Assembly: GCA_031459715.1 (NCBI GenBank) | Contig: JAVKIA010000002.1 | Coordinates: forward strand, 64,596 to 128,595 | Direction: 5' to 3' | Length of the DNA stretch: 64,000 bases | Source: Armatimonadota bacterium | GTDB taxonomy: Bacteria > Sysuimicrobiota > Sysuimicrobiia > Sysuimicrobiales > Humicultoraceae | In this document: positions 7,368 through 23,055 of the stretch, in pieces | Numbering within the stretch: position 1 is the first letter of the stretch | Layout of the letters: each line of letters begins with the position of its first letter | Notes under the pieces: generated by a model | What the model saw: only the letters and a program-made list of their open reading frames with translations | Databases searched by the model: none | What the model was told of the DNA's origin: nothing | Program-made: the position numbers and the translations under genes

Positions 7368-8932
7368 GTCCGGTGCACCCTGCCGTCGTGGTCCCGTCGC
7401 AGCAGCCCCAGCACGTTGCCCTGCCGGTCGCGCAACCGCAGCACCAGCGGCATGCTTCCGGGGAGAGAGTGGGTGGCGCAGGCGTGACAGGGGTCGTAGG
7501 CACGGAAGGCCATTTCCACCATGTTCAGCAGCCCCTCGCTGAGCTCCCGTCCGGAGAGCACCCCCTTCGCCGCCTTCTCCACGCTCATGGCGATGCGCGC
7601 AGCGTTGTTCTGCGTGGCCACGATGAGGTTGGCCCGCTGGATCACCCCTCGCTCATCGGTCTCGTAGTGGTGGAAGAGCGTCCCCCGCGGCGCCTCCACC
7701 ACGCCCACTCCCGCACGCGGTGTGGCCGTGGGCAGGGTGCGCACCACTGGGTCGATGATCTCCGGGTCGTTGGCCAGCTCCCGCATCCGCTCTGCGGCGT
7801 AGAGCAGCTCGATCACCCGCGCCCAGTGGTTGGCCAGGGTGTGGTGCACCGGCTTGCCGCCCAGGGTGGCGTAGAACTCCTCGTAGGCCTCCTGGGCCAG
7901 AGGCGTGGCCATGCCGTCGGCCGCGTTCAGCCGGGCCAGGGGGGCGACGCAGTAGATGCCGCTGTCGGGCCCGTCAACAAACCCCTTCCACCCCACCGGC
8001 TTCAGGTAGCAGAACTTGACGTAGCTCCACGGCTCCACGTGTTCGGCCACGTAGTCCAGGTAGTCGGCCGCGGCGAACGTGGTTAGCTCTCTCCCCTCGG
8101 GGGAAGTCACGCGAATCCGTCCGTCGTAGAAGTTGACTCGGTTGCGATTGTCCACCAGCCCCATGTAGTAGGTGCGGTGGGTGAAGGCGTCGTCGCGGAT
8201 GAGGGCCACGTAGTCGGAGTTCTTCAGGACCACATCCTGGAACAGCTTCAGGGTGAAGCGGGCAAACTCCACCGCCTCCCCCGCCACCTCCTGGAAGCGG
8301 GCCTGGTCCTGGGGGGTGAGGCGCCTGGCCACCCCGCCCGGCAGCCCCAGCACCGGGTGAACCGCCTTTCCCCCGACCAGAGCGATCAGCTCGCGCAGCC
8401 GTCGGCGCATGGCGATAACCCTCTGCCCCACCTCCAGCCCGACGCGGGCGATCACTCCCAGGACGTTGCGCTCGGCGGCGGGCGCGGTGGGCCCCACGAC
8501 GAAGTCGGGGCCGCCCAGGAAGTAGAAGTGAAGGGCGTGGTCCTCCGTCATGAAGGTGCTGTAGACCAGCTCACGGATCTTCCGCGCTGCCGGCGGGGGG
8601 GTCACCTGGTAGAGGGCATCCAGGGCCTTGGTGGAGGCCATGTGGTGCGCGGTGGGGCAGACCCCGCAGATGCGGGAGGTGATCTGCGGCATCTCCTCCG
8701 CCGGCCGCCCCTCGGCAAATTTCTCGAAGCCGCGCAGCTCGGGCACCTGGAAGTAGGCCCGCTCCACCTGCCCCTGCTCGTCCAGGAAGATGTCGATCTT
8801 CCCGTGCCCTTCCAGGCGGGTGATGGGGTCGATGGTGACGCGTCGCCGCACGTACTCGGCGGTGGCCCGCCTCGCTCCCTCCTGCCACGCCCTCTGAGCT
8901 GTCTGCTGCTCTTCCTGCGCCATCCCAGCCAC
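7364..8932 (-). CDS. mvhA: [NiFe] hydrogenase large subunit, MvhA-like (group 3c type)
   Basis: Catalytic subunit of an Hdr-linked hydrogenase, 522 residues. The nickel motifs are RICGVCPTAHH near residue 87 and DPCHACATH near 485, with a C-terminal extension after the His for endopeptidase cleavage. VTIDPITRLEGHGKIDIFL is the conserved start of the family. Adjacency to mvhG, mvhD and hdrA places it in the MvhADG module that oxidises H2 and feeds the flavin of HdrA for electron bifurcation to ferredoxin and a second acceptor. A 79-base gap with a strong hairpin separates it from mvhG. Confidence 0.94.
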   Translation of the reverse strand: MAGMAQEEQQTAQRAWQEGARRATAEYVRRRVTIDPITRLEGHGKIDIFLDEQGQVERAYFQVPELRGFEKFAEGRPAEEMPQITSRICGVCPTAHHMASTKALDALYQVTPPPAARKIRELVYSTFMTEDHALHFYFLGGPDFVVGPTAPAAERNVLGVIARVGLEVGQRVIAMRRRLRELIALVGGKAVHPVLGLPGGVARRLTPQDQARFQEVAGEAVEFARFTLKLFQDVVLKNSDYVALIRDDAFTHRTYYMGLVDNRNRVNFYDGRIRVTSPEGRELTTFAAADYLDYVAEHVEPWSYVKFCYLKPVGWKGFVDGPDSGIYCVAPLARLNAADGMATPLAQEAYEEFYATLGGKPVHHTLANHWARVIELLYAAERMRELANDPEIIDPVVRTLPTATPRAGVGVVEAPRGTLFHHYETDERGVIQRANLIVATQNNAARIAMSVEKAAKGVLSGRELSEGLLNMVEMAFRAYDPCHACATHSLPGSMPLVLRLRDRQGNVLGLLRRDHDGRVHRT

Positions 8933-9011: not shown

Positions 9012-10004
9012 CTAAGCCGCCCTGACCTCCCGCCGGCGGCGCAGCAGTGAGGCGGGCAGACTGTACCGGTACAGCGTCCCGGTGGGATCCGGGATCTGCT
9101 GGAAGATGCGCACGATCTCCTCCCCGGCGTTGCTGGCCACGATGGAGGCCAGGGCCGAGAGGGCCTTGCCGCCGTAGTCACGCACCCGGCTGGTGGGCCC
9201 GAAGCACCCCGAGCAGGGCATGTTGCCCTTGACGCACAGCGCCCCACAGCCCGCCCGCGTGGCCGGGCCCAGGCAGAGCAGCCCCTGCGCCAGCAGGCAC
9301 GTCCCCTCGTCGACCAGTACCTGGTGTGGCCGCTTGAACTCCACCAGGCCCAGGCGCTCCGGCTTGGAATCCTTGCGCGGGCACTCCTCGCACAGCGCCT
9401 GGTCGGGGGCGAGGACCGATCCCCGCGCCGGCAGCTCGCCGCGCAGCAGGGCCCGAACCGCCTGCAGGATGATGTTGGGCGTGGGCGGGCAGCCGGGGAG
9501 GTAGTAGTCCACCGGGACCACCTGGTCCAGGGTGCGCACGGTGTCGAAGAAGCCGGGGAGGGTGAGGGGACGGCCGTCGTCCTCGTAGCGCACCTGGGGC
9601 AGGACGCCGTCCGGGTTGTCGGTGCTGGGCGACTCCAGGTAGACCCGGCGGAAGATGCTCTCCCGGTCCCAGAGGTTGGCCAGCCCGGGAATCCCGCCCA
9701 GATGGGCACAGGCGCCGAAGGCAATCACCAGCTTCGACTTCTGCCGCAGCAGCTGCGCCATCTCCGCCTGCTCCGTGGTGCGCACCGCCCCGTTGATGAA
9801 CGACGCCGCCAGGGATCCGTCCTCCATGGCCTCCACGTCCCGGCGCTTGAAGTCCAGGGCCACCGGCCAGAAGGCGATGTCCACCGCGCCCACCACCTCC
9901 AGGATGGCCTCGGCCAGGTCCACTACGGCCTCCTCGCAGCCGCCGCAGGAGGCGCACCAGTAGAAGGCCACCTTGGGCTTGCCCGTTTGCGGCGCATCCG
10001 CCAT
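9012..10004 (-). CDS. mvhG: [NiFe] hydrogenase small subunit, MvhG-like
   Basis: A 330-residue electron-transfer subunit with FYWCASCGGCEEAVVDL (proximal cluster, near residues 15-31), GACAHLGGIPGL, CEECPRKDSKPE, and CLLAQGLLCLGPATRAGCG ... GNMPCSGCFGPTS for the other clusters. There is no Tat signal. The ATG at 10002-10004 overlaps the mvhD stop by one base, which fixes the start although the frame is open further upstream. Confidence 0.94.
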   Translation of the reverse strand: MADAPQTGKPKVAFYWCASCGGCEEAVVDLAEAILEVVGAVDIAFWPVALDFKRRDVEAMEDGSLAASFINGAVRTTEQAEMAQLLRQKSKLVIAFGACAHLGGIPGLANLWDRESIFRRVYLESPSTDNPDGVLPQVRYEDDGRPLTLPGFFDTVRTLDQVVPVDYYLPGCPPTPNIILQAVRALLRGELPARGSVLAPDQALCEECPRKDSKPERLGLVEFKRPHQVLVDEGTCLLAQGLLCLGPATRAGCGALCVKGNMPCSGCFGPTSRVRDYGGKALSALASIVASNAGEEIVRIFQQIPDPTGTLYRYSLPASLLRRRREVRAA

Positions 10005-10504
10005 CAGGCCGCCACCTCCTCTCGCTGCCGCGGCACCGGGACCTCCTGCGGCACCTCCAGCCGCAGCGGCCCCAGAGCGCGCACCTGCTCCACCATTTCG
10101 TTGACCACCGCCCGCACCCGCTCCGCCTCCGAGGCCGAGATCCACTCCAGGCGGAAGCGCTGCGGCTCGATGCCCAGGGTGGCCAGCACCTGGCGCAGGA
10201 GCGTGTAGCGGCGCAGGGTCTTGTAGTTGCCCTCCTGGTAGTGGCAGTCCCCGGGATGGCAGCCGCCGATGAGCACCCCGTCCGCGCCGCGGGCGAAGGC
10301 CTCCAGCACGAACTGGGGATCGACCCGCCCCGAGCACATAGTGCGGATGACCCGCACGTTGGGAGCGTACTTCATCCGGGAGGTCCCCGCCAGGTCGGCG
10401 GCGATGTAGGTGCACCAGTTGCAGAAAAAGGCGACGATCCTGGGCTCGAAACCTTCCGGCGCCGCCCGCGCCCCGCCTTCCGTAGTGTGTGTTGCCTCAG
10501 GCAT
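10004..10504 (-). CDS. mvhD: MvhD/FlpD-type Fe-S protein linking hydrogenase to HdrA
   Basis: A 166-residue [2Fe-2S] protein of the MvhD/FrhD family that forms the electrical contact between hydrogenase and HdrA. The family cysteines are present in FFCNWCTYIAADLAGTSRM, RVIRTMCSGRVDP and GGCHPGDCHYQEGNY. The start overlaps the hdrA stop by 8 bases. The C-terminal helix ends in a short basic stretch. Its position between hdrA and mvhG repeats the order of the proteins in the known complex. Confidence 0.93.
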   Translation of the reverse strand: MPEATHTTEGGARAAPEGFEPRIVAFFCNWCTYIAADLAGTSRMKYAPNVRVIRTMCSGRVDPQFVLEAFARGADGVLIGGCHPGDCHYQEGNYKTLRRYTLLRQVLATLGIEPQRFRLEWISASEAERVRAVVNEMVEQVRALGPLRLEVPQEVPVPRQREEVAA

Positions 10505-12497
10505 GGGTCAGCACCCCCTCGATCTCCTCGAAGATGGCCTCGTCCTCGAAGAGGTTCTGCTTGATGGACCCCGAAGGGCAGGCGGCGACACAGACCCCGC
10601 ACCCCTTGCACAGCACCTCGTTGATCTGGGCCTTCTTCGTCTCGGCCACAAAGCTGATGGCGTTGTAGGGACACAGGGGGATGCAGGTCTTGCAGCCGGA
10701 GCAGTCCTCCTCCACCACGTAGGCGGTGTAGGGCTCCAGCTCCACCGCCCCGGCGTCGATCAGGGCCAGGGCTTCCGCGGCGGCCGCCCCCGCCTGGGCC
10801 ACGCTGTCGGGGATGTCCTTGGGGCCCTGGCAGGCTCCCGCCAGGAAGATCCCGTCGGTGAAGGTGGACACCGGGGCCAGCTTGGGGTGTCGCTCCAGGA
10901 ACCACCCCTCGGTGGAGCAGCTGATGTTGAACAGGCGGCGCACCTCTTGGGCATCCGGGCGTGGCTCCAGCCCCACGGAGAGCACCACCATGTCCACGGG
11001 GATCTTGCGCACCTTGCCCAGCAAGGTGTCCTCCACCTGCACCACCAGCCGCCCATCTCCGCCAGGGTAGAGGTCGGCCACCTTCCCCCGGATGAAGTGG
11101 GTGCCCTCCTCCTGCACTCGGTTGTAGAACTCCTCGAAGCTCTTGCCCGGGGCGCGGATGTCGATGTAGAAGTTGTAGACCTCCGCCTGGGTCTTCTCCT
11201 TGATCAGGTGGGCCAGCTTCAGGGAGTACATGCAGCAGACCCGGGAGCAGTAGCGGTTGGTGTTCTCGTCCCGGCTGCCCACGCAGTGGATGATGGCCAC
11301 GCTCTCCGGCCGCCGGCCATTGCGCAGCACCACCTCACCTCCGGTGGGCCCGGCGGCGTTTACCAGCCGCTCCACCTCCAGCGCCGTGTACACCTGCGGA
11401 TAGGTGCCGTAGCCGTAGTAGGGGATGCGCCGGGCGTCGAAGATCTTGAAGCCGGTGGCCAGGATGATGGCCCCCACCCGGATGGTCTCCAGACGCTCCT
11501 GCTGGCTGAAGTCGATGGCCCCCCGCTCCCCGCAGGCCTCCACGCAGGTCTTCTTGCACTTCCCGCTCTTGAACTCGATGCAGGCCTCCCGGTCGATGAC
11601 CACCACCTGAGGCACGGCCTGAGGGAAGGGCATGTAGATGGGTTTGCGCCGGGACAGCCCCAGGTTGAACTCGTCAGGCGTCTTCCCTTCCTTGTAGACG
11701 CAGGCCTCGATGCACTCCCGACAGCCCACGCAGAGGTCCTCGTTGACGTAGCGCGGCTTGCGGCGCACGGTCACCTGGTAGTTCCCCACATAGCCGCCGA
11801 CCTGCGTCACCTCCGAGTAGGTCCACAGGGTGATGTTGGGGTGGGCCTTCACCGCGGTCATCTTCGGGGTGAGGATGCAGGCCGCGCAGTCCAGGGTGGG
11901 GAAGGTCTTGTCGAACATGGCCATGTGCCCGCCGATGGTGGGCTCCCGCTCCACCAGGTAGACGTGCTTGCCGGCGTTGGCCAGGGTCAGGGCAGCGTGG
12001 ATCCCGGCTATCCCCCCGCCCACCACCAGCACGTCGGGGTTGATGGTCACCCGCCGCCGCTCCAGGGGGCGGTGCAGGGCCACACGGCGCACGGCCGCCC
12101 GGATGAGGTCCCCGGCCTTGGCCGTGGCCGCCTCCCGGTCTTCGTGCACCCAGGAGTCGTGCTCGCGGATGTTCACCATCTGCACCTGGAAGGGGTTTAG
12201 GCCGCCACGGGCGGCGGCGCCGCGGAAGGTGTGCTCGTGCAGCAGCGGCGAGCAGGAAGCCACCACCACACGCTGCAGGCGGTGCTCGGCGATATCCTTG
12301 ACGATGAGCTCCTGGCCGGGGTCGGAGCACATGTAGCGGTAGTCCCGCGCCACTACCACCCCGGGCAGCGTGGTCGAATAGGCTGAGAGCGCCTGCACGT
12401 CCACGGTGCCGGCGATGTTGGTGCCGCAGTGGCAGATGTAGACGCCGATCCGGGGTCTGCCGTTGGGACCTCCAACTCCTTCCGCCATATGCATCAT
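10497..12497 (-). CDS. hdrA: Heterodisulfide reductase subunit A (flavin-based bifurcating subunit)
   Basis: A 666-residue FAD and multi-[4Fe-4S] protein, the site of electron bifurcation in HdrABC. In order: YICHCGTNIAGTVDV (N-terminal Fe-S region), the FAD motif VLVVGGGIAGIHAALTLA (about residues 155-172), EREPTIGGHMAMFDK and TLDCAACILTPKM, the inserted ferredoxin motif CVGCRECIEAC, and two C-terminal ferredoxin motifs CSGCKTCIPLCPYNA and CKGCGVCVAACPSGS. The frame is open to 12839, but the ATG at 12497 overlaps the upstream stop (ATGA) and starts the conserved sequence. Size matches methanogen HdrA rather than the fused HdrA-like proteins. Confidence 0.95.
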   Translation of the reverse strand: MMHMAEGVGGPNGRPRIGVYICHCGTNIAGTVDVQALSAYSTTLPGVVVARDYRYMCSDPGQELIVKDIAEHRLQRVVVASCSPLLHEHTFRGAAARGGLNPFQVQMVNIREHDSWVHEDREAATAKAGDLIRAAVRRVALHRPLERRRVTINPDVLVVGGGIAGIHAALTLANAGKHVYLVEREPTIGGHMAMFDKTFPTLDCAACILTPKMTAVKAHPNITLWTYSEVTQVGGYVGNYQVTVRRKPRYVNEDLCVGCRECIEACVYKEGKTPDEFNLGLSRRKPIYMPFPQAVPQVVVIDREACIEFKSGKCKKTCVEACGERGAIDFSQQERLETIRVGAIILATGFKIFDARRIPYYGYGTYPQVYTALEVERLVNAAGPTGGEVVLRNGRRPESVAIIHCVGSRDENTNRYCSRVCCMYSLKLAHLIKEKTQAEVYNFYIDIRAPGKSFEEFYNRVQEEGTHFIRGKVADLYPGGDGRLVVQVEDTLLGKVRKIPVDMVVLSVGLEPRPDAQEVRRLFNISCSTEGWFLERHPKLAPVSTFTDGIFLAGACQGPKDIPDSVAQAGAAAAEALALIDAGAVELEPYTAYVVEEDCSGCKTCIPLCPYNAISFVAETKKAQINEVLCKGCGVCVAACPSGSIKQNLFEDEAIFEEIEGVLTHA

Positions 12498-14602
12498 CCC
12501 TCCGAGGGAGCTGTGGCCTCGTCCACCAGCTCCACCACGTCCCTGATGGTCAGCTTCCCCTCCAATCCGGTGGTCTTCAGGGCATCCTGAAACATGACGC
12601 GGTCCTTGGGGCAGGCCACCACCAGGGTGTCCACCCCCAGCGCGGCCGCCTCCCGCACGCGGCTCTCCGCGGGACGCTCTCTGACTCCCGGAACCTCCTC
12701 CATCCAGATCCTCCCCCCGCCGGCACCGCAGCAGTAGCTGCCGCGGCGGTTGCGTCGCATCTCCCGCAGCTCCACCCCCAGGGCCCGCAGCACCCGGCGC
12801 GGCGGGTCGTAGATCCCGTTGCCCCGTCCCAGGTAGCATGGGTCGTGGTAGGTGGCACGCAGCCGCAGCGGCCGGGCCACCCTAAGGCCACCTGTCCGCA
12901 GCAGCTCCTCCACCACCTCGGAGTGGTGGCGCACGGGCGGAGGGCCCTGTCCGTCGCCGGCGAGGGCGTACTCGTTGCGCAGCGCGTGCAAGGTGTGCGG
13001 GTCGGTGGTGAGCAGGCGGCGGAAACGCGCCCTGGCCAGCGCCTGCAGGTTCTTCTCCCGCAGCATCTCGAAAAGGCCCTCCTCGCCGGCACGACGCGCG
13101 TCAGTGCCGGCGTTGCGCTCCTCCTCGTAAAGGATGGCCACGTCCAGGCCGGCGCGGTGGAAGACCCGGGCCGCCGCCCGGGTGGCCGGCTGCACCCGCG
13201 GGTCGTAGGAGGCGTAGTCGCCGAGGAACCACAGGTAGTCGGCTGCCTCCTTCCGTGCATCTTTGAGGGAGAAGCCCAGCCCCTGCGTCCAGCGGGTGCG
13301 GGCGCGGGAGGGCTGCCCCATGGAGTTGCCGTAGCGGGACAGGTTCTGCAGAGCCGCCTGCAGGCGCTCTTCCACTTCGCCCTGCGCCACCAGGAAGCGT
13401 CGCAGCTGCAGGATGAGCTCAAACGGCGAAGCACCCACCGGGCACCGGTCGACGCAGCCCAGGCAGGCGGTACACGACCACAGCCAGTCCACCGGAACCA
13501 GGCTGACCCCGGGGGGGACCGGAGGGCCAGGATTGGCCGGGGCAACCGCCGGCGTCGCCGGTCTGCCCGCAGCAGGAGAGGCCAGTCGATCGGCCAGCCC
13601 GCGCAGCGCGAGCATGAAGTCTCTCGGGGACAGAGGAAACCCGCTCCCCGCCGCCGGGCAGGCGGCATGACACCGACCGCACCGGGTGCAGGCGTCCAGC
13701 ATGAGCAGCTCACCGCGGCTGAAGTCTTCCAGCCGGGTGTACGAAGGTGCCTCGCCGAGGATGGGTGCGCGGACCGTCCCGGGAGGGGCATTCCCTCCCA
13801 GGGCCAGGCTGAACCACCCGGCCACCATGTGCCAGGCCTTGCCGTAGGGGATGTAGGCAACAAACACCAGGGCCATCAGCGCGTGTGCCGACCAGGCGTA
13901 GGGAAAGGCCAACCGCGCGGCTTCCGGGGCCAAGCCTACCCCGAGCAGCACCTGTGCCAGGCCCCACCCGGCAAACGACACTCGTTCGAAGGCCGGCTGT
14001 GTGGTGCTGATGCGCAGCGCTTCCACCACGAACCCGCCCAGGCCCACAGAGAGCAGCAACAAGAGGAACAGCCAGTCCTCACGCACCAGTGACCGGGGCG
14101 AATACGGCGTATCCGCCGAGGACCTGTACCTCAACTGGGGTGGAGGAAACACCCAGCGGCGCAGGGCAAACATTACCAGACCGCCAAGCAATGCCAGGCC
14201 AAAGAGGTCTGCGGCGAGAGAGAAGCCCAGGTAGAACGCCCCGGAGAGGAACCTCCACTGGGGAGCCAGCGGCTTGAGCAGGTCGTTGTCTACCAGCACC
14301 AGGAGGGTGGCGACGAACAGCGCAGCAAATCCCCAGAAAACGGCCAGATGCGCCAGCCCCGGGTACAGATTTCCCTGCAGGACCGTCCGGTTCCCCAGGA
14401 TCGACAGGACCGCAGAGCCCAGTCGTCTCCAGGTCAGCCGCTCTTCAGGCTGCCGCCGGCCGCGGAGGTACTTGCGCACCTTAAAGTAGACGCCACGGAA
14501 GAACAGACCGAGTGCCCCGGCACTCAGGAGGTAGAAGACCACCACCAGCCAGGCAGGCAGCAGGAAGAACACCGGGCGTCCGATAAGCTCCGCGTCCGTC
14601 AT
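12494..14602 (-). CDS. Membrane EtfAB:quinone oxidoreductase, FadF/EMO type (heme b domain plus HdrD-like domain)
   Basis: A 702-residue fusion: an N-terminal NarI-like membrane domain of about five or six helices (residues 12-35, 75-105, 125-150, 180-205, 230-260), expected to hold heme b, followed by two ferredoxin motifs (CTRCGRCHAACPAAGS, CTACLGCVDRCPVGAS) and a CCG-type domain (YHDPCYLGRGNG ... GSYCCGAGGG). This is the layout known for EtfAB:menaquinone oxidoreductase. It directly follows etfBA with a one-base overlap, so electrons from acyl-CoA or other dehydrogenases are expected to flow Etf to this protein to quinone. Placement inside an Hdr-Mvh operon is unusual. Confidence 0.9.
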   Translation of the reverse strand: MTDAELIGRPVFFLLPAWLVVVFYLLSAGALGLFFRGVYFKVRKYLRGRRQPEERLTWRRLGSAVLSILGNRTVLQGNLYPGLAHLAVFWGFAALFVATLLVLVDNDLLKPLAPQWRFLSGAFYLGFSLAADLFGLALLGGLVMFALRRWVFPPPQLRYRSSADTPYSPRSLVREDWLFLLLLLSVGLGGFVVEALRISTTQPAFERVSFAGWGLAQVLLGVGLAPEAARLAFPYAWSAHALMALVFVAYIPYGKAWHMVAGWFSLALGGNAPPGTVRAPILGEAPSYTRLEDFSRGELLMLDACTRCGRCHAACPAAGSGFPLSPRDFMLALRGLADRLASPAAGRPATPAVAPANPGPPVPPGVSLVPVDWLWSCTACLGCVDRCPVGASPFELILQLRRFLVAQGEVEERLQAALQNLSRYGNSMGQPSRARTRWTQGLGFSLKDARKEAADYLWFLGDYASYDPRVQPATRAAARVFHRAGLDVAILYEEERNAGTDARRAGEEGLFEMLREKNLQALARARFRRLLTTDPHTLHALRNEYALAGDGQGPPPVRHHSEVVEELLRTGGLRVARPLRLRATYHDPCYLGRGNGIYDPPRRVLRALGVELREMRRNRRGSYCCGAGGGRIWMEEVPGVRERPAESRVREAAALGVDTLVVACPKDRVMFQDALKTTGLEGKLTIRDVVELVDEATAPSEG

Positions 14603-15588
14603 CAGCTCGCCGCCTTCTGCCGTGCGGCCCTTATCCGGTCGATCAGGAGCGGCACAATGTCAAACAGGTCGGCCGTCACCCCGTAGTGCGCGACTCCGAA
14701 GATGGGGGCCCGCGGATCGGTGTTGATGGCAATGATCAGCCTGGCGCGCTTCATCCCCTCCACGTGTTCCGGCGCTCCGCTGATGCCAAGGGCCAGATAC
14801 ATCTGGGGCTCCACGATCATCCCGGAGGTGCCGACCTGGCGGGATGCGGGCAGCCAGCCCTGGTCGACCACGGGCCGCGACCCACAGACGGCACCCCCCA
14901 GCGCTGCGGCCAGCTCTTCTGCCAGGGCCACGTTCTCCTGGCGCTGAATCCCTCGTCCCACGGCCACCAGAACGTCCTCCCGGGTGATGTCTACATCACC
15001 GGGCGGCGGCTCGGTGTAGCCGCGGAACTGGACCGGCGGCGTTGCCGGGAGGTCGACGGAGACCGCCGCGCATGGAGGCGTGCGATCAATCCGCCCCTGC
15101 TCCCGGGGGCGAGCTCCAGGCAGGATCCCCAGCACAACAGGCGTCCTTTCTGGGACCACGGCTGCCTCGACCTTTCCGCCGTAGAGCAGACAGCGGGCCA
15201 GGAGTCGCCCCTGGTCCAGGTGGACGTCCCGGCAGGAATTGATGCAGGACAATCCCAGTCGCGCCGCCAGTAGCGGTCCACACCCCATCAGGGCGTTCGT
15301 CTGGGGGATCAGCAGCGCCTCCGGCTGGCGCCGGGGAATGACCTGCGCCAGGACCAGAGCATAGAGATCCGGTTCTGGTTCCCCCAGCGCGGTGTTCTCG
15401 GCGACCAGAACGCCGTCGGCGGCTCCCAACGAGGGAGGCACCTCGGCAACGCCGGGCCCCAGCAAGACTGCCTGAAGACTTCCGCCCGTGGCTGTGGCGA
15501 GTTCGCGACCAAGCGCCAGCACCTCGTACGTCACGTCGGTGACCTGGCCCCGCCACTGTTCCACCAGCACCCAGATGTCCCCGGCCAT
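14602..15588 (-). CDS. etfA: Electron transfer flavoprotein alpha subunit
   Basis: FAD-carrying subunit, 328 residues from the ATG at 15586-15588 (MAGDIWVLVEQWRG); a GTG nine bases upstream is an alternative. The C-terminal FAD domain is clear: RPVVDQGWLPASRQVGTSG, MYLALGISGAPEHVEGM and IAINTDPRAPIFGVAHYG. The stop overlaps the membrane oxidoreductase start by one base. Whether the pair bifurcates cannot be decided from sequence by eye; the neighbouring quinone oxidoreductase favours a quinone-linked Etf. Confidence 0.94.
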   Translation of the reverse strand: MAGDIWVLVEQWRGQVTDVTYEVLALGRELATATGGSLQAVLLGPGVAEVPPSLGAADGVLVAENTALGEPEPDLYALVLAQVIPRRQPEALLIPQTNALMGCGPLLAARLGLSCINSCRDVHLDQGRLLARCLLYGGKVEAAVVPERTPVVLGILPGARPREQGRIDRTPPCAAVSVDLPATPPVQFRGYTEPPPGDVDITREDVLVAVGRGIQRQENVALAEELAAALGGAVCGSRPVVDQGWLPASRQVGTSGMIVEPQMYLALGISGAPEHVEGMKRARLIIAINTDPRAPIFGVAHYGVTADLFDIVPLLIDRIRAARQKAAS

Positions 15589-15601
15589 CTGCCTCACCGC
15601 C

Positions 15602-16384
15602 TCAGACCAGCCCGCGTTCTCGCAGGAGGTCGCAGATCTGTGCGGCGACCTCCTCGGGCGACCCTTCCAGCATCACGGCGCCACCGCCAACCTGCGGCTT
15701 GCTCAACTGGAGCACCTCCAGATGCGCCGGCTCCTCCTCTACCGCCGCCGGCAGCACCTCCAGGCGCTGAGCCTTCATGGCCGCGCGCACCCTGGCTACC
15801 GGCACGTAGCGCGGCGGCTTCTCGGCGGACTGAACGCCCAGGACCACCGGCAGCCGCACCTCGAAGGTGCCGGTGACGCCTCCGGCGTACTCGCGCGCCA
15901 CGACGGCCTCATGCCCGGCCGGGTCAACCTCCACCCGGGAAACCATGCTGACATAGGGCAGCTCCAGCAGCCGGGCCACCACAGGACCGGTCTGGCCGTC
16001 CAGGTCGTCGATAGCCTGTACGCCGGTGAGGATGAGGTCCGCGGGCAGCAGCCCCGGCGTTACGCGCAGGGTCCTGGCCAGGGCCGCAGCGGCTGCCCAG
16101 GTGCTCATCCCCGGCTCCACCCCGGAGACCTTCACCGCCCGGTCCGCGCCCTTGGCCAGGGCGGTGAAGAGGACGTCGTCCACCTCGGGAACGTCCAGGG
16201 CCACGGCGGTGACGGTCCCCCCGTAGCGCTCCTTGAGCAGAAGCGCCTCCTCCAGGGCATGCTCGTCCCGCTCGCTGACCACCAGACGCACCGAGCTCGG
16301 ATCCAGCGACCGTCCGTCCGCAGCGATCTCCGGCTCTTCCACCACGTCCGGGACCAGCTTGAGCAGCACCAGCACCTTCACCAT
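15602..16384 (-). CDS. etfB: Electron transfer flavoprotein beta subunit
   Basis: A 260-residue nucleotide-binding partner of EtfA. MVKVLVLLKLVPDVVEEPEI is the typical N-terminus, with SERDEHALEEALLLKE near residues 37-52 and the nucleotide-binding stretch TGVQAIDDLDGQTGPVVA near 120-137. It lies 28 bases downstream of hdrB and 13 bases upstream of etfA, within the same run of genes, which argues for co-expression of Etf with HdrABC. Confidence 0.94.
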   Translation of the reverse strand: MVKVLVLLKLVPDVVEEPEIAADGRSLDPSSVRLVVSERDEHALEEALLLKERYGGTVTAVALDVPEVDDVLFTALAKGADRAVKVSGVEPGMSTWAAAAALARTLRVTPGLLPADLILTGVQAIDDLDGQTGPVVARLLELPYVSMVSRVEVDPAGHEAVVAREYAGGVTGTFEVRLPVVLGVQSAEKPPRYVPVARVRAAMKAQRLEVLPAAVEEEPAHLEVLQLSKPQVGGGAVMLEGSPEEVAAQICDLLRERGLV

Positions 16385-16412: not shown

Positions 16413-17285
16413 TCATCCCGCCACCTTTGCCAGCACCGGGGCCGGGGAAACCAGCTCCGTGCCCACGCCCAGCCGCTGCGGCGGGATCCCCAGCGCCAGC
16501 CCCACCAGTTGCGTGAAGTAGAGGACGGGCAGGCGGAAGCCGGTGCCGAAGGTCCGATTGACCTGCCGCTGGTAGCACTCCAGGTTCACCTGGCACAGGG
16601 GGCAGGCGGTGGCCACCACCTCCGCGTCGTGGTCTGCCGCGTCCTGCAGCAGGGCGTAAACCATGCTTAGAGCCGCGGGCCGGTGGGTGACGATCAGCGA
16701 GCCCCCGCAGCAGCGGTCCCGCAGGGGGAACTCTACCGGGGTGGCGCCGATGGCGGTCAGGAGATCCTCGAAGAAGCGAGGTGCCTCTTCTCTCGCCCCG
16801 GGCTTGTGCGGCCGCAGGATCTGGCAACCGTAGTATGGGGCGACACGCAGGCCGGCAAGCGGCCGGGTGACGCGCCTGCGGATCTCTGTCAGGCCCACCT
16901 CCTGCACCAGGACCTCCAGCAGGTGACGCACGTGCACGGTCCCCCGGAACTGCAGCCCGTCCTCGGCCAGGGCCGTGTTCACGTGCTCCGCCAGGTCGGG
17001 GTCCTGTCGCAGGTGCTCCCGGGCGAAGTACATGTTCTTGTAGCAGCCGCTGCAGGGCGTGACCACGTCCAGCCCCTGCTGCTCCGCCAGGGCCAGGTTG
17101 CGTGCGGAGAGGGTGGTGGCCAGCAGCTCGTCGATGTGGAAGTAAGCCGTGGCCCCGCAGCAGTTCCAGTCCTCCAGTTCGCGCAGCTCCACCCCCAGCG
17201 CCCGCGCCGTCTCCATCGCCGAGCGGTGATAGGACGCGGCCATTCGTTCCAGGGAGCACCCGGGGTAGTAGCTGTAGGCCCTCAT
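16413..17285 (-). CDS. hdrB: Heterodisulfide reductase subunit B
   Basis: A 290-residue protein with two complete CCG motifs, each built of Cys, then CCG, then CxxC: the first around YYPGCSLERM ... WNCCGATAYF ... TPCSGCYKNM, the second around YYGCQILRP ... RDRCCGGSLI ... TACPLCQVNL. These bind the noncubane [4Fe-4S] clusters that reduce disulfide-type substrates in HdrB. The ATG at 17283-17285 overlaps the hdrC stop (ATGA). The physiological disulfide or alternative acceptor is unknown in a bacterium lacking coenzyme M and B. Confidence 0.94.
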   Translation of the reverse strand: MRAYSYYPGCSLERMAASYHRSAMETARALGVELRELEDWNCCGATAYFHIDELLATTLSARNLALAEQQGLDVVTPCSGCYKNMYFAREHLRQDPDLAEHVNTALAEDGLQFRGTVHVRHLLEVLVQEVGLTEIRRRVTRPLAGLRVAPYYGCQILRPHKPGAREEAPRFFEDLLTAIGATPVEFPLRDRCCGGSLIVTHRPAALSMVYALLQDAADHDAEVVATACPLCQVNLECYQRQVNRTFGTGFRLPVLYFTQLVGLALGIPPQRLGVGTELVSPAPVLAKVAG

Positions 17286-17845
17286 GCCAGCCCTCCTGCC
17301 GGCAGGATCTGTCCGATCACCCGCCGCAACCGGTCCACGCGCCTGATGCGCCGCGGCAGCAGGGGCAGCCGCCCCCGCCGCAGCAGCCCCAGCGCCGTGC
17401 GCACTTCGTCCAGCAGGTCGCGCAGGCCGCGCCGCAGGAGGTAGGGAGCGGCCAGAGCGGGCTCGTAGGAGCGGCCGTAGCGGGTGATCAGGCGGACGAA
17501 GCGGCGGGAAAAGTCCGCGCCCGGGGGGACCCGGCGGTAGTGGTTGCGCCAGAGGGCGTAGCGCTTCAGCCCGTACATCATCGCCGCCACGTCGATCCCC
17601 TGGGGACACTTCACGCTGCAGGCGTAGCAGGAGGCGCAGGCCCAGTAGGCGTTGCTGGCCAGGACTGCCGTCTTCTGCCCGGCCCGAATCATGGCAATGA
17701 TCGCCCGGGGAGAATGCTGCATGAAGGCCACCGCCGGGCAGGTCCCGGAGCAGAGCCCACACTGGATGCACGCCTGCACCGGATTGCTGTCCATGACGTA
17801 GAAGAGGTTGGCGATCTCCTGCTCGAAGGTCAGCGCCCGGGCCAT
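17282..17845 (-). CDS. hdrC: Heterodisulfide reductase subunit C
   Basis: A 187-residue protein with two [4Fe-4S] motifs, CIQCGLCSGTCPAVAF near residues 26-41 and CASCYACSVKCPQGIDV near 70-86, which connect HdrA to HdrB. The C-terminal third is Arg-rich and extends beyond the minimal family length. It starts 9 bases after the receiver-domain gene and overlaps hdrB. Confidence 0.93.
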   Translation of the reverse strand: MARALTFEQEIANLFYVMDSNPVQACIQCGLCSGTCPAVAFMQHSPRAIIAMIRAGQKTAVLASNAYWACASCYACSVKCPQGIDVAAMMYGLKRYALWRNHYRRVPPGADFSRRFVRLITRYGRSYEPALAAPYLLRRGLRDLLDEVRTALGLLRRGRLPLLPRRIRRVDRLRRVIGQILPAGGLA

Positions 17846-17854
17846 GCTCGCTTC

Positions 17855-18274
17855 CTACCCCGCCTCCCGCCGGGCGGCGGCTGCCTGCAGCAGCGCCCGC
17901 ACCCGATCCAGAAGCAGCTCCGGGTCCACGGGCTTCTCCATCAGCTCGTCCACAGGGAGGATGTGCGGGTGGACCGCCTGTCCCGGGAACAGGAAGGCGA
18001 TCTGCTCCCGGATGCCGGTGATGATCAGGGTGGGAATCCGGGAAAGCTGGGGGTCCTTGCGCATCTTCCGCGCCAGCATCACCCCTTCCGCTCCCCGGCC
18101 CATGAGGATGTCCAGCAGAAGCAGGTCGGGGGGACGGCGCTTCAACGTCTCAAACCCGCTTCGGGGATTGTAGGCGGCCTCCACCTCGTACCCCGCCCCC
18201 TCAAGCACCCCGCGGATTGCATCCACGAATTCCGGGTCGTCGTCGATGATCAGCAGCCTGGCCTTCTCCTTCAT
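17855..18274 (-). CDS. Single-domain response regulator (receiver only)
   Basis: A 139-residue receiver domain with no output domain: LLIIDDDPEF (acidic pocket), LLLLDILMG (phospho-acceptor Asp near residue 55), LIITGI (Thr) and EKPVDPELL (Lys). A stretch before the conserved Lys (QIAFLFPGQAVHPHILPVDEL) is longer than usual. It overlaps the hybrid kinase stop (ATGA) and sits directly before hdrC. It could be a phosphate sink, a relay intermediate, or a regulator acting by protein contact. Confidence 0.9.
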   Translation of the reverse strand: MKEKARLLIIDDDPEFVDAIRGVLEGAGYEVEAAYNPRSGFETLKRRPPDLLLLDILMGRGAEGVMLARKMRKDPQLSRIPTLIITGIREQIAFLFPGQAVHPHILPVDELMEKPVDPELLLDRVRALLQAAAARREAG

Positions 18275-19425
18275 GCCGCACCCTCCAGTGATGCCGCGGG
18301 CCGGTCCAGCCCCACCGCCACCTGCCCCGCCTGCCCGGCTACGGGCAGAGCCACGGTGAAGGTGCTGCCCTTCCCCGGCGTGCTCTCCGCCGTGATCACC
18401 CCGCCGTGCGCCTCCACGATCTTGCGCGTCACCGCCAGCCCCAGCCCCGCACCCACCTCCCCGGCCATCCCGGCCCGCCCGCGGTAGAAGGCGCCGAAGA
18501 TGTGAGGGAGCTCGTCGGGGGGAATACCCACGCCCTGGTCGCTGACGCCGATGTGTACCTGCTCCCCCTCGACCCGCGCCGCCACGGTGATGCTGCCACC
18601 GGGGTAGGAGTACTTGACCGCGTTGTGCAGGAGGTTGACCAGCGCCTGCACCAGGGTCACTTCGTCCCCGACCACCGGAGGCAACCCTTCGGGGAGAGCC
18701 GTGCCGATCTGCAGATCCTTGCGTCGGGCGAAGGGCTGTACCGCCTCCACCGCCCGGGCCACCAGGTCTGCCACGGCCGTGGGCCGGAAGCGTTCCCGGA
18801 TGCCACGCAGGTCCACGGAGATCGCCCGAAGCCAGGTATCCACCATCTGCAGGAGGTCGGCCAGGCGCGCCTGCAGGCGGGCCAGCCGCTCCCGTTGCGC
18901 CTCGGTCAGGGCTTCCCGCAGCTCTGCCGCCAGCAGATAGAGGCTCTGCTGAACCGCCGCCAGAGGGGACTTCACCTCATGGGCGATGATGGCGGCGAAG
19001 TGCTCCCGCAGCATCTCCTGCTCTCGACGCAGGGCCATCGTCTCCTGCACCAGCCGCCTTCGCTCCAGGCCGCGGCGGGTGATCAGTCGCAGCTCCTCCG
19101 GGGTGAAGGGCTTGGGCACGAAGTCGTAGGCCCCCCGCTGCATGGCCTCCACAGCTGAGGCCAGCGTGGCGTAGCCGGTGACGACGATGGTGACCACGGA
19201 GGGATCGGCGGCGCGGATGCGCTCCAGTACCTCCATCCCCGACATCCCCGGCATCTTCAGGTCCAGGTAGACCAGGTCGGGGCGAAACTCTTCCACCTGC
19301 CGCAGTCCCTGCGCCCCGTCGGAGGCTGTGGCCACGGCGTAGCCGGCGGCGCGGAGGATCTCGCTGCAGGAATCCAGAACGATCTCCTCGTCGTCCACGA
19401 TGAGGATGCGCCCGGTGACCTCCAC
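18271..19425 (-). CDS. Hybrid receiver-histidine kinase
   Basis: A 384-residue protein with an N-terminal receiver (RILIVDDEEIVLDS, phospho-acceptor Asp in LVYLDLKMPGMSG, VVTGYA, PKPF) followed by a cytoplasmic histidine kinase: His in FAAIIAHEVKSPL, N-box LVNLLHNAVKYS, G1 DQGVGIP, G2 GAGLGLAV. There are no membrane segments and no PAS domain. The GTG at 19423-19425, three bases after the sensor-kinase stop, is chosen because the longer frame runs through that gene. It probably takes phosphate from the membrane sensor kinase upstream and passes it to the stand-alone receiver. Confidence 0.9.
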   Translation of the reverse strand: MEVTGRILIVDDEEIVLDSCSEILRAAGYAVATASDGAQGLRQVEEFRPDLVYLDLKMPGMSGMEVLERIRAADPSVVTIVVTGYATLASAVEAMQRGAYDFVPKPFTPEELRLITRRGLERRRLVQETMALRREQEMLREHFAAIIAHEVKSPLAAVQQSLYLLAAELREALTEAQRERLARLQARLADLLQMVDTWLRAISVDLRGIRERFRPTAVADLVARAVEAVQPFARRKDLQIGTALPEGLPPVVGDEVTLVQALVNLLHNAVKYSYPGGSITVAARVEGEQVHIGVSDQGVGIPPDELPHIFGAFYRGRAGMAGEVGAGLGLAVTRKIVEAHGGVITAESTPGKGSTFTVALPVAGQAGQVAVGLDRPAASLEGAA

Positions 19426-19427
19426 CG

Positions 19428-21437
19428 CTACGCCTCCTGTCCGGCGGCGGGCAGGCTCACCGTGAAGGTGGTTCCCCTGCCCACCTCGCTCTGCACGTTG
19501 ATGGCACCCCGGTGTTCCTGGACGATGCGGTAGCTGATAGCCAGCCCCAGCCCGATCCCCCGGCCTGAGGGCTTGGTGCTGAAGAACGGGTCGAAGATCC
19601 GCTCCAGGTCCTCGGGGCGGATGCCGCGCCCGGTGTCGCTGATGGCGATGTGGATCATCCGGGCCACAGGGTCGTAGGACGTGGTGGCGATCAAGGTGCC
19701 GGTCCCGTCCATGGCCTCCGCGGCGTTTACGATGATGTTCATGAACACCTGCTGCATCTGGGCGGGGTCCGCCATCACCGACGGCAGGCCTGGCTGCAAG
19801 TTGCGGATGACCCGGATGTTGTGGAACATCGCCTGGTGCTCCACCAGGCCCAGGCATTCCTGGAGGATGCTGTTAACGTTGGCCGGTCGCACCTGCGGCG
19901 GGCGCGGTCGGGCAAAGTCCAGCAGCCCCTGGATGATCTCCCGGCTGCGGTCGGCCTGGACGGCGATCTTCTGCAGCGCCGGCCGCAGCGGGTCATCCGA
20001 CGGGACCTTCTCCAGCAGCATGTGCGCGTAGGCCAGGATCCCCTGAAGGGGGTTGTTCAGCTCATGCGCCACCCCGGCGGCCAGCTGCCCGGTGATGGCC
20101 AGCCGCTCGGACTCGCGGATGCGGCTCTGGGCGTACTCCCGCAACTGCGCATCGCGCTGCTGCAGGGAGGCGGCCATAGCATTGAAGGCCTCCGCCAGCT
20201 CCTGCAGCTCATCGTTGGTGCGTAGGAACACACGCACATCCAGCTTCCCCCGGGCCATCTCCTGCGCGGCGTGAGTCATCCGGGCGATCCCGGCGGAGAC
20301 ACGGCGAGAGATGTAGTAGGAGACGACCATGGAGAGAATCCCGCCCATCAGGCTGATGGCCAGGAAGGCGGCAATGGTCCGCCGCCGGATAGCCACGTAC
20401 TTCCCCTCCAGCACGCCCACGTAGAGGATCCCGATGATTCGGTCATCCAGGGCACGGATGGGCTCGTAGGCTGCGATGTACCAGTTGTTCACCACGAAGG
20501 CCCGGCTGGTCCAGCGCTGTCCCTGCTCTACCACCCGGCGGTAGACGTCCGAGGCGACACGGGTGCCCACGGCACGGCTGCCGTCAGCATTGGGCACGTT
20601 GGTGGCGATACGCAGGTCGTCAAGGAAGATGGTGGCGGTGCCCACGTCCCGCCCGCCGTAGCGCAACCCCTGGAAGACGGTCTCCTTCACCCTGTCCACG
20701 ATCTCGTAGTTGCGGTTCAGCAGCACGCCGCCGTAGAGAAAGCCGATCAGCCCGCCGCGCCCATCCAGGACGGGCGCCACTGTCTCCAGCACCATGCCGG
20801 CGGTTTCCTCGGTCTCCGGGCGCGGCCGCGCCCTGGGCGTGGGAACGAAACGGATGTAGGCCCGGTCCGCCAGGAGCGGCGACTCCAGTCGCAGGTCGGT
20901 CCCGGGTATGACGCTCACCGCAGCCACCGGCACCTTCCGCGCCCGTGCCGCGGCCAGCAGCGGGTCGTGGTTGCGGTAGTCGCCAGCCACCCCCGGATTG
21001 CTGGTTCGCAGCAGAACCCTGCCGGCGGCGTCGGTCACCGTGAGGAAGTCCAGCCCCTCGCTGCGGGCGACGCGGGCCAGCTCCGCCGCCGCCTCCTCGA
21101 TTTTCCCCCTCTCCAGAGCGCTCCTGAGGAAGAAGCGGTCCGCGGTCAGCCGGACCACGGCGTGCACGTTGTTCAGGCGGCCATAGAGGAGCTCCCGCGC
21201 CGTGTTCAGGGCGTTGGTGACCGAGGTCTGCGCCTCGGAGAGGATCAGCCGGCCAACCAGCTGCGTCCCCACCACCATGAAGACGATTACGGCGATGAAG
21301 ATGATCAGCAGGTAGCTGAAGACCAGCTTGGCGCCGATGGACAGCCGTCGCCGGACGGCCGGTGCCAGCCAGCGCCGCACCGCGGGCAGCACAGGCCGTG
21401 CGCTCGCCTGGCGGAAAAGCTGATGCACCGTACTCAC
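19428..21437 (-). CDS. Membrane sensor histidine kinase with extracytoplasmic Cache-like domain
   Basis: About 670 residues. A first membrane helix (KLVFSYLLIIFIAVIVFMVV) and a second near residue 340 (AFLAISLMGGILSMVVSYYI) flank an extracytoplasmic region that looks like a Cache-type ligand-binding domain (VPVAAVSVIPG, GFLYGGVLLNRN). Then come HAMP (ISRRVSAGIARMTHAAQEM), the His box GVAHELNNPLQGIL, N-box IIVNAAEAMDG, G1 DTGRGI and G2 GIGLGLAIS. The start is uncertain: GTG 21437 or 21428, with an in-frame TTG at 21476. It sits between the HdrD-like gene and the hybrid kinase. Confidence 0.9.
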   Translation of the reverse strand: MSTVHQLFRQASARPVLPAVRRWLAPAVRRRLSIGAKLVFSYLLIIFIAVIVFMVVGTQLVGRLILSEAQTSVTNALNTARELLYGRLNNVHAVVRLTADRFFLRSALERGKIEEAAAELARVARSEGLDFLTVTDAAGRVLLRTSNPGVAGDYRNHDPLLAAARARKVPVAAVSVIPGTDLRLESPLLADRAYIRFVPTPRARPRPETEETAGMVLETVAPVLDGRGGLIGFLYGGVLLNRNYEIVDRVKETVFQGLRYGGRDVGTATIFLDDLRIATNVPNADGSRAVGTRVASDVYRRVVEQGQRWTSRAFVVNNWYIAAYEPIRALDDRIIGILYVGVLEGKYVAIRRRTIAAFLAISLMGGILSMVVSYYISRRVSAGIARMTHAAQEMARGKLDVRVFLRTNDELQELAEAFNAMAASLQQRDAQLREYAQSRIRESERLAITGQLAAGVAHELNNPLQGILAYAHMLLEKVPSDDPLRPALQKIAVQADRSREIIQGLLDFARPRPPQVRPANVNSILQECLGLVEHQAMFHNIRVIRNLQPGLPSVMADPAQMQQVFMNIIVNAAEAMDGTGTLIATTSYDPVARMIHIAISDTGRGIRPEDLERIFDPFFSTKPSGRGIGLGLAISYRIVQEHRGAINVQSEVGRGTTFTVSLPAAGQEA

Positions 21438-21491: not shown

Positions 21492-22703
21492 CTAGCTGAC
21501 CAGGGCTTCGGCCAGCAGTTCCACCACATCGCGCACGACCATCCGCTTCTCGTAGCCCAGCACCTTCAGCGCGTCCTCGAAGCGGGCGACCTCGTAGGGG
21601 CAGGAGACGGCCAGCACGTCCGCACCGGTGGCCACCGCCTCCTGCACCCGCCGCTCCGACAGCCGCTCGTAGCCCTTGGCCTTGTAGTAGGCGTCCAGCC
21701 ACATGCCTCCACCGCCCCCGCCGCAGCAGACCGTGTTTACCCGGTTGTGTGCCATCTCCAGGAGTCGTATCCCGGGGATCGCCGTCAGGAGCTGCCGTGG
21801 CTCGTCGTAGTAGCCGTTGTGCCGGCCCAGACAGCAGGAGTCGTGATACGTTACGGCATATCCCAGGCGTCGTCTCAGCAACGGCCGGAGGCGCTCCAGG
21901 TGCCGCACCAGGAAGGGGACCGTGTGTTCCACTGGGAAGGCAAAGCCCAAGGCGGGGTATTGATACTTGAAGGCGTCGTAGGCGTGCGGGTCCCCGGTGA
22001 CCAGACGGTCAAAACGGTACTTCTGCAGTACGGCCATGTTGTAGTCAGTGAGGGTACCGAAGAGGCCCGCTTCGCCCACCAGCCGGGAGCACTCCCCGGC
22101 GCACTTCTCTTCGTGGGCCAGGATGGCGAAGTCCACGCCCAGGGCGTGGAAGACCCTGGCGGTGGCGCGGCTGACCTCCTGCCCGCGCGGCGTGTAGGAG
22201 GGGTAGCACTCCACGAACCAGAGGACGTCCACCGGTCGCGGCGTCTCCGCCAGGATGCGCACAGGTACCTCCGCACCCTTCGTCCATTCGCCCCGGCGCC
22301 GCGGCGGGAGGCCCATAGGGTTGCCGTAACGCAGGGTGTTGTCCAGGGCCCGCCGCAGCTCCGTCGGCACGTCGGGTAGGCGGAGGAAGACCTCCTCTTT
22401 GACCAGGGGCAGGAGGACCTCGGTCAGACGGATGCCTCGGGGGCACTTGGCCATGCAGGCGTAGCAGGCGACGCAGGTGAGCATGCTGTCACTGGAGAGC
22501 GCCTCCTCCAGCATCCCCGCGCGCAGCAGTCCGATGATCCGCCGCGGCGGGTAGTCCATCACCTCCCCGTGGGGGCAGGTCCCCGCGCAGACACCGCACT
22601 GAATGCAGGTGAGGATCCGCCGCCCCTCAGGAGTCGCCAGCAGATTTGCCAGTGCCGGCTCCGCTACAAACTCCGAGCCGCCGGCCGCGACTGCGTCAGA
22701 CAT
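21492..22703 (-). CDS. HdrD-like iron-sulfur oxidoreductase (ferredoxin plus two CCG domains)
   Basis: A 403-residue HdrC-HdrB type fusion without membrane helices. Two ferredoxin motifs (CIQCGVCAGTCPHGEV, CVACYACMAKCPRGIRL) precede a degenerate first CCG domain (FVECYPSYTP ... EEKCAGECSRLVG) and an intact second (YHDSCCLGRHNG ... TVCCGGGGGG ... VSCPYE). The ATG at 22703 (MSDAVAAGG) follows a GAGGACGG ribosome site. It closely resembles the soluble half of the membrane oxidoreductase at 12494-14602, suggesting an alternative electron donor or acceptor for the Hdr or Etf system. First gene of the operon. Confidence 0.88.
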   Translation of the reverse strand: MSDAVAAGGSEFVAEPALANLLATPEGRRILTCIQCGVCAGTCPHGEVMDYPPRRIIGLLRAGMLEEALSSDSMLTCVACYACMAKCPRGIRLTEVLLPLVKEEVFLRLPDVPTELRRALDNTLRYGNPMGLPPRRRGEWTKGAEVPVRILAETPRPVDVLWFVECYPSYTPRGQEVSRATARVFHALGVDFAILAHEEKCAGECSRLVGEAGLFGTLTDYNMAVLQKYRFDRLVTGDPHAYDAFKYQYPALGFAFPVEHTVPFLVRHLERLRPLLRRRLGYAVTYHDSCCLGRHNGYYDEPRQLLTAIPGIRLLEMAHNRVNTVCCGGGGGGMWLDAYYKAKGYERLSERRVQEAVATGADVLAVSCPYEVARFEDALKVLGYEKRMVVRDVVELLAEALVS

Positions 22704-23055
22704 CGGCCCACCGTCCTCGCAAGATGTATCTCCGGGACCATGGTAGGCGCGGCCGGCCGCCGGTGGCATCGGGCAGGCAGTTGAAACACCCTGCGCAGGG
22801 GTGCTGCGGAAACCGCACGGCCACTGTATGCGCACCACCCGTTAGAACTATTCCCATTGTCCCATCGGGCCAGAGGTAGGCCGCAGGCAGATCGGGCCCG
22901 GCACCCTCCTGGCCGCTATCCGCAGTGCGCATACCGCCGGCACCGGGAGTGGGACAACACCGCCCCGGTTCAGGCTCTTCTCCCCCGGGATACTAGGGAG
23001 CTTGCTCGATGCGCCGCCCTGGCCCCGCACCTAGCGTGAGACGGGGGTGGGTTCT
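22704..23055. promoter_or_regulatory. Divergent intergenic region between the Hdr operon and the HybAB-like genes
   Basis: These 352 bases hold no credible gene. They contain a 10-base motif GTATGCGCAC at 22826-22835 whose reverse complement occurs at 22925-22934, an inverted pair about 100 bases apart, suitable for a regulator that loops or serves both promoters. A possible plus-strand promoter is TTCAGG (22969-22974), 16 bases, TACTAG (22991-22996). No convincing minus-strand -35/-10 pair was found for the large operon. All functions here are inferred. Confidence 0.35.

Follow-up and report, generated by a model that had tools for sequence, protein, structure and literature searches.

The regulation of electron-bifurcating enzymes is still largely an open question, of which the locus described here raises a particular form: what is the output of a set of two-component proteins that are encoded inside an Hdr operon and carry no DNA-binding domain? 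The window, the whole stretch of 64,000 nucleotides that was analysed, covers positions 64596–128595 of contig 2 (JAVKIA010000002.1) in an assembly (GCA_031459715.1) of an Armatimonadota bacterium that is 2.76 Mb long, in 75 contigs and 97% complete; the closest named relative is Armatimonadetes CSP1-3 (Sysuimicrobiota). At 21437–17855 on the minus strand, genes for a membrane sensor kinase (HK1), a soluble receiver-kinase (RECHK) and a lone receiver (REC) are flanked by an HdrD-like gene and hdrC. The initial annotation read this trio as a phosphorelay whose output must be either a regulator elsewhere or direct protein-level control of the Hdr and Etf enzymes. The observation was confirmed, and the enzyme-level interpretation, which is plausible, was strengthened but not proven. 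On balance, we consider it somewhat probable that REC, switched by phosphorylation, is the output and acts at the protein level on the Hdr complex, the likely input being formate.

A two-component trio between an HdrD-like gene and hdrC

All three open reading frames (ORFs) are open and intact: HK1 (GTG start, 669 aa), RECHK (GTG, 384 aa) and REC (ATG, 139 aa). HK1 begins 54 nt after the HdrD-like gene and is followed by RECHK after 2 nt, RECHK and REC overlap by 4 nt (ATGA), and hdrC follows REC after 9 nt; coordinates, intact frames and spacing agree with the earlier description of consecutive genes with overlapping or near-adjacent ends. Pfam searches on all three proteins likewise upheld their assignment as a Cache-HAMP kinase, a receiver-kinase and a lone receiver, none with a DNA-binding domain. 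HK1 has sCache_3_3/Cache_3-Cache_2, HAMP, HisKA and HATPase_c domains with two transmembrane segments, RECHK has Response_reg, HisKA and HATPase_c, and both kinases retain the catalytic histidine together with N and G boxes. REC matched Response_reg alone, with no output domain, and every homologue from the block likewise consists of a receiver only. From these domains and the gene order we infer that the trio forms a phosphorelay. The features of the trio and its immediate neighbours are as follows.

21492–22838, minus strand: HdrD-like protein (4Fe-4S dicluster and two CCG domains; Pfam CCG, Fer4_8), directly upstream of HK1
19428–21437, minus strand: HK1, membrane sensor kinase with Cache_3-type sensor, HAMP, HisKA (H458) and HATPase_c (from Pfam, residues and sensor model)
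20562–20612, minus strand: formate-type signature in HK1, R276, T279 and T292 (R-x2-T-x12-T; from PacF-like spacing and PDB profile matches)
18271–19425, minus strand: RECHK, soluble receiver-kinase with REC (D55), HisKA (H149) and HATPase_c (from Pfam and residues)
17855–18274, minus strand: REC, lone receiver of 139 aa with phospho-acceptor D55 (from Pfam, invariant residues and motifs)
17282–17845, minus strand: HdrC-like 4Fe-4S protein (from sequence and Pfam), immediately following REC in every copy of the block
16413–17303, minus strand: HdrB-like protein with two CCG domains (NCBIfam CoB_CoM_SS_B, E 2e-63, under its cut-off)

Conservation of the five-gene block

To place the trio in context, 84,980 species were scanned with a REC pattern, which gave 60 loci (two of them, L010 and L039, from one genome). 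The order and strand of HK1-RECHK-REC-HdrC-HdrB are kept in 45 distinct loci besides the window, wherever the contig reaches, with L079, which lacks HK1, as the sole exception. In total, about 50 distinct genomes carry the block, most of them from Chloroflexota; the other hosts bear the labels Actinomycetota, Acidimicrobiia, Gemmatimonadales and Verrucomicrobiia, which may be wrong for metagenome-assembled genomes. Given that about 50 other genomes have these five genes in the same order, the trio is not a chance arrangement.

Around the block, the Etf, HdrD-like, HdrA and hydrogenase genes vary, lying upstream, downstream, on the opposite strand or nowhere nearby. In two loci (L154, L155) the module lies between the hydrogenase small subunit gene and HdrC. 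All seven strong REC matches in a sample of 400 Chloroflexota genomes came with the block. REC was found in 6/43 Sysuimicrobiota genomes, each time (6/6) with an HdrB orthologue; the only other HdrB, the seventh, is 8 bp away from the end of its contig. Since the order is kept while Etf, HdrA and hydrogenase genes rearrange, and since REC is always accompanied by HdrB in Sysuimicrobiota, the module is patchy in distribution yet stays together as a unit tied to hdrCB.

Three loci have features of their own. At L079 (3421–11919), RECHK-REC-HdrC-HdrB lies between the genes for the hydrogenase small and large subunits. At L055 (2819–5891), HK1 and RECHK are each spread over several frames, which points to frameshifts or to errors in the assembly. 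A long HdrC frame at L040 looks like a truncated HdrC/HdrB region.

Within the block, REC is the most conserved of the proteins compared. Across 861 species pairs its identity exceeds that of HdrB in 96% (medians of 73 versus 65%) and that of the RECHK receiver in 89% (RECHK receiver median 67%; HdrC median 57%). Residues D11–D13, D55, T86 and K114 are invariant across 27 homologues, and two near-invariant motifs are specific to the family: MGRGAEG follows the phospho-Asp, and IITGxREQxAFLFPG lies at beta4-alpha4. Receivers generally signal via the alpha4-beta5-alpha5 face. On a tree, the RECHK receiver clusters with generic receivers, apart from the lone REC.

A wider family of lone receivers beside redox enzymes

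A REC profile search of 294 Planctomycetota and 400 Chloroflexota genomes recovered cousin receivers at E values of 1e-20 to 1e-33. In 33/47 of their loci an electron-transfer gene from a redox reference set lay within 1.5 kb of the receiver, as opposed to 0/29 generic receivers of the same genomes (Fisher p 1.6e-10) and 0/42 from the window's own genome and its relatives. Pfam searches on larger stretches identified HydABC [FeFe]-hydrogenase (L247) and NAD-linked formate dehydrogenase (L248), each with a formate-type Cache kinase, beside cousins; [NiFe]-hydrogenases at L251 and L252; and, around a cousin missed by the reference set (L250), HydAB and HydE/G/F-type maturation genes. On a receiver tree the family stands apart from generic receivers, a separation that is partly by construction, and the two 'generic' exceptions are the window REC itself under other locus identifiers. 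Enzyme type changes 7 times on this tree, close to the minimum of 6, whereas shuffled labels gave at least 15 changes. One family member (L249, 5989–6378, genome G207) lies in an unexplained context, between an ARMT1-like phosphatase gene and a gene for a 667-aa protein with no Pfam match.

In two sister genomes (L150, 2662–19082, and L151), a MetVF-Hdr cluster contains two lone receivers between two metF genes, together with a cytosolic histidine kinase that has a cyclic-nucleotide (cNMP)-binding domain and a 1,737-aa GltD-HdrA fusion with the same domain at its N-terminus. This joining of a signal-input domain to an HdrA-type flavoprotein is an independent hint of enzyme-level control. Similar in spirit is a 155-aa cNMP-binding protein without a DNA-binding domain (no HTH) in the window (5024–4557, minus strand), within a neighbouring [NiFe]-hydrogenase cluster (1664–6168); homologues also lie beside EMO/HK1 in L043, L044 and L055.

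Taken together, the linkage of the block to Hdr genes and the position of cousins beside hydrogen and formate enzymes make it probable that the direct targets of REC are energy enzymes and not genes. More broadly, it is possible, if somewhat short of probable, that the lone receivers form a widespread family of phospho-switchable regulatory subunits for flavin-based electron-bifurcating and related enzymes (HdrABC-Mvh, MetVF-Hdr, HydABC and NAD-linked formate dehydrogenase), with a subclade for each enzyme type and often driven by a formate-sensing kinase, which would let cells gate bifurcation quickly on external formate.

The HK1 sensor and its candidate ligand

HK1 matched sCache_3_3 in Pfam (E 9e-33), and the predicted model of its sensor has a Cache fold with high confidence (predicted local distance difference test (pLDDT) 94, predicted template modelling score (pTM) 0.90). 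When the sensor profile was compared by sequence with the PDB, the only matches were 8py0 and 8py1, both sensor domains solved with formate. The spacing of R276, T279 and T292 equals that of R142, T145 and T158 in PacF, alteration of which affects formate binding (PMC12501870). These three residues are kept in 32/35, 34/35 and 34/37 HK1 homologues, respectively, L080 and L091 included. Formate is thus a strong candidate for the HK1 ligand, judged from sequence, rather than a result. The earlier idea of a membrane sensor named neither a likely signal nor a wide receiver family, both of which are added here.

Proposed mechanism and points against it

In the mechanism we favour, a small carboxylate, most likely formate, would bind the periplasmic Cache domain of HK1, which would autophosphorylate and act on the receiver of RECHK. 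RECHK would in turn phosphorylate D55 of REC, the end of the line. Phospho-REC may then bind the redox complex, most likely at HdrC/HdrB, via its beta3-alpha3 and beta4-alpha4 surface (candidate residues 57–65 and 88–104), and this binding would change the activity, partner choice or location of the complex.

Two further analyses bear on this chain. Partial correlations of pairwise identities (mirror-tree, 21 loci) were similar along its length (HK1-RECHK 0.38, RECHK-REC 0.35, REC-HdrC 0.38, HdrC-HdrB 0.35) and recovered known partners (EtfA-EtfB 0.42, HdrA-MvhD 0.37, and HdrC-HdrB); the value for RECHK-HdrB (0.43) is unexplained. REC and HdrC were also modelled with AlphaFold2 as a fusion of both frames by in-frame TAG/TAA read-through. 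In this model REC residues 88–107 had pLDDT <50, while most of the receiver core had 75–95; the low-scoring segment fits a partner-dependent surface but proves nothing. Sequence searches for any experimental structure in which a receiver sits on a redox enzyme returned generic receivers alone.

Several points weigh against enzyme-level control. The fused model reached a pTM of only 0.47, with no confident docking, and no natural REC-Hdr fusion was present among the 48 loci inspected. The mirror-tree values are weak support, since adjacent genes share history and adjacency confounds them. As for the wider family, cousins were picked by their similarity to REC, the redox reference set was built on the loci examined earliest, and most of the control receivers have output domains. 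Finally, in the Planctomycete locus L080 an NtrC-type sigma-54 regulator accompanies homologous kinases, which means that there the sensor can feed transcription as well.

Alternative outputs

The foremost rival is a transcriptional output, in which the operon is under the control of an unlinked DNA-binding protein to which HK1, RECHK or REC signals; this protein could be a one-component factor, an anti-sigma partner or a NarL-type regulator. There is precedent: DVU2394, which binds DNA, controls the adh-hdr operon of Desulfovibrio vulgaris (PMC3333781), and rrf1 and rrf2 are described as regulators of hmc expression where PMC10924467 cites Keon 1997. L080 (4063–16409) itself has a same-type sensor kinase, an NtrC sigma-54 regulator, tandem REC-REC, RECHK, REC, formate dehydrogenase and hydrogenlyase-like genes. 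The best NCBIfam matches of HK1 were AtoS and ZraS-type kinases. Such kinases partner with NtrC-type sigma-54 regulators.

We looked through the genome for an output of this kind, as the initial annotation had proposed, and found no orphan DNA-binding partner of a matching class. Of 22 receiver places, three encode OmpR-type regulators, each with a HisKA kinase within 2 kb; the remainder, read from their sequences rather than Pfam, are NarL, LytTR, ANTAR, GGDEF, HD-GYP, CpaE-like, hybrid or lone receivers. The NarL, LytTR and ANTAR regulators are potential recipients, but NarL regulators normally pair with HisKA_3 kinases; one of them might nonetheless act off-pathway. The RpoN DNA-binding domain (PF04552) is absent from the 97%-complete genome, no NtrC regulator was convincing (PF00158 gave only weak, partial matches), and an NtrB/NtrC-type sigma-54 system was rejected for this genome. 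Nor does the genome encode an HPt, so there is no onward relay by that route. Absence of RpoN is not a general rule for hosts of the block: of the 19 other genomes counted, which leave out L080 and L091, 12 had no RpoN match over the cut-off and 7 had one. In all block loci, moreover, REC is tied to hdrC and to no regulator gene. These data make a transcriptional output unlikely, although it is the best surviving of the rivals. The original choice between a regulator elsewhere and direct protein control accordingly narrows: with no obvious DNA-binding output in the genome, conservation and the wider family favour the enzyme level, while the binding to HdrC, HdrB or Etf proposed at the outset gained little from the fused model.

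A different protein-level role for REC, as a subunit needed constitutively for assembly, a tether to the membrane or a proteolysis adaptor like CpdR, would suit a small, highly conserved protein co-inherited with HdrC, and the poorly modelled, near-invariant 88–107 segment is what a partner-dependent surface would be expected to look like; invariant phosphorylation residues and the retention of kinases in the block argue instead for a switch, and we regard such a role as quite improbable. Least likely of all is that REC acts as a sink for phosphate or as a feedback element tuning HK1/RECHK, with a real output unrelated to the Hdr complex, since this would leave unexplained the tight hdrC/hdrB linkage, the conservation above HdrB and the receiver subclades that follow enzyme type, even though lone receivers commonly act as sinks and RECHK and REC are correlated.

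The surrounding operon

The trio belongs to an operon-like run on the minus strand in the order HdrD-like, HK1, RECHK, REC, HdrC, HdrB, EtfB, EtfA, membrane iron–sulfur (FeS)/CCG protein, HdrA, MvhD and hydrogenase small and large subunits. HdrA, HdrB, HdrC, MvhD, MvhG and MvhA, the HdrABC-MvhAGD (group 3c) gene set, are all together in the window. Because HdrA, HdrB and HdrC score under the methanogen equivalog cut-offs, CoM-CoB reduction is not implied. The features downstream of hdrB are as follows.

15602–16384, minus strand: EtfB-like protein (from sequence and gene order, no Pfam scan); homologues move with EtfA
14602–15597, minus strand: EtfA-like protein (from sequence and gene order, no Pfam scan); homologues move with EtfB
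12494–14602, minus strand: membrane FeS/CCG protein, EMO/HdrD-like (Pfam Fer4, CCG; N-terminal hydrophobic helices)
10497–12533, minus strand: HdrA-like flavoprotein, start approximate (NCBIfam HdrA2, 863.9 bits, under the cut-off of 1100)
10004–10504, minus strand: MvhD/FlpD (Pfam FlpD, E 3e-55)
9012–10010, minus strand: [NiFe]-hydrogenase small subunit, MvhG-type (Pfam Oxidored_q6)
7364–8932, minus strand: [NiFe]-hydrogenase large subunit, MvhA-type, group 3c-like (from sequence and gene order, no Pfam scan)

The genome has a second Hdr set outside the window (L153; contig 2, 34000–50000), with MetF, a GltD-HdrA fusion without a cNMP domain, fused HdrCB, FolD and a NuoEF-type protein, and without a lone receiver.

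Relation to known systems

If the receiver does switch enzymes directly, bacteria that live in syntrophic and acetogenic communities could adjust their electron flow to outside formate, ahead of gene expression, and the receiver would serve as a genomic marker of regulated complexes and as a small handle for their purification or control.

CheY, DivK, Spo0F and CpdR are single-domain response regulators that act by protein contact through a receiver without an output domain, and REC has the same architecture. To our knowledge, no regulator of this type is known on an electron-bifurcating enzyme. The best NCBIfam match of REC is DVU0259_DivK (NF045717), at 58.9 bits against a cut-off of 160, so REC is not a member. 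DVU0259 is linked to tmc. Like REC, DVU0259/DivK and the rrf1/rrf2 genes of hmc, which has an HdrD-like subunit, accompany electron-transfer complexes in Desulfovibrio, but the rrf genes are described as acting on expression (PMC10924467, in its account of hmc). The DVU2394 system of Rajeev et al. also ties two-component control to an Hdr operon; it differs in its DNA-binding regulator, as none was found for this block at the window locus or in its genome.

On the input side, HK1 shares a profile match and R-x2-T-x12-T with formate receptors of the PacF/Atu0526/sCache_3_3 type (8py0, 8py1; PMC12501870, PMC12415202). Those are chemoreceptors. HK1, by contrast, is a histidine kinase whose sensor is longer and has two parts, and its signature lies in the membrane-proximal module, whereas PacF holds formate in the distal one. 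Elsewhere, a receiver gene lies beside a putative sensory [NiFe]-hydrogenase in Syntrophaceticus (PMC5113046), and a Sysuimicrobiota survey reported group 3c hydrogenases with no two-component link (PMC11604079). In the open-access literature, searches for receivers with Hdr or bifurcating hydrogenases gave no sightings beyond those cited here, and neither the receiver family nor control at the enzyme level was described; this absence is weak evidence, as subscription journals lie mostly outside it.

A close likeness is in the Chloroflexi DscP3 HdrABC-MvhD-MetVF operon, where Sewell et al. noted a 'phoBR' pair flanking metF (PMC5736913). This cluster places two-component genes in an Hdr-type electron-bifurcating operon and resembles L150 and L151; its genes were annotated only as PhoBR, and a lone-receiver family, co-inheritance or an enzyme-level role was not proposed there. 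Of the novelty first claimed for this locus, co-location had therefore already been noted and transcriptional control of an adh-hdr operon was known, while the receiver family and the proposed mechanism are new.

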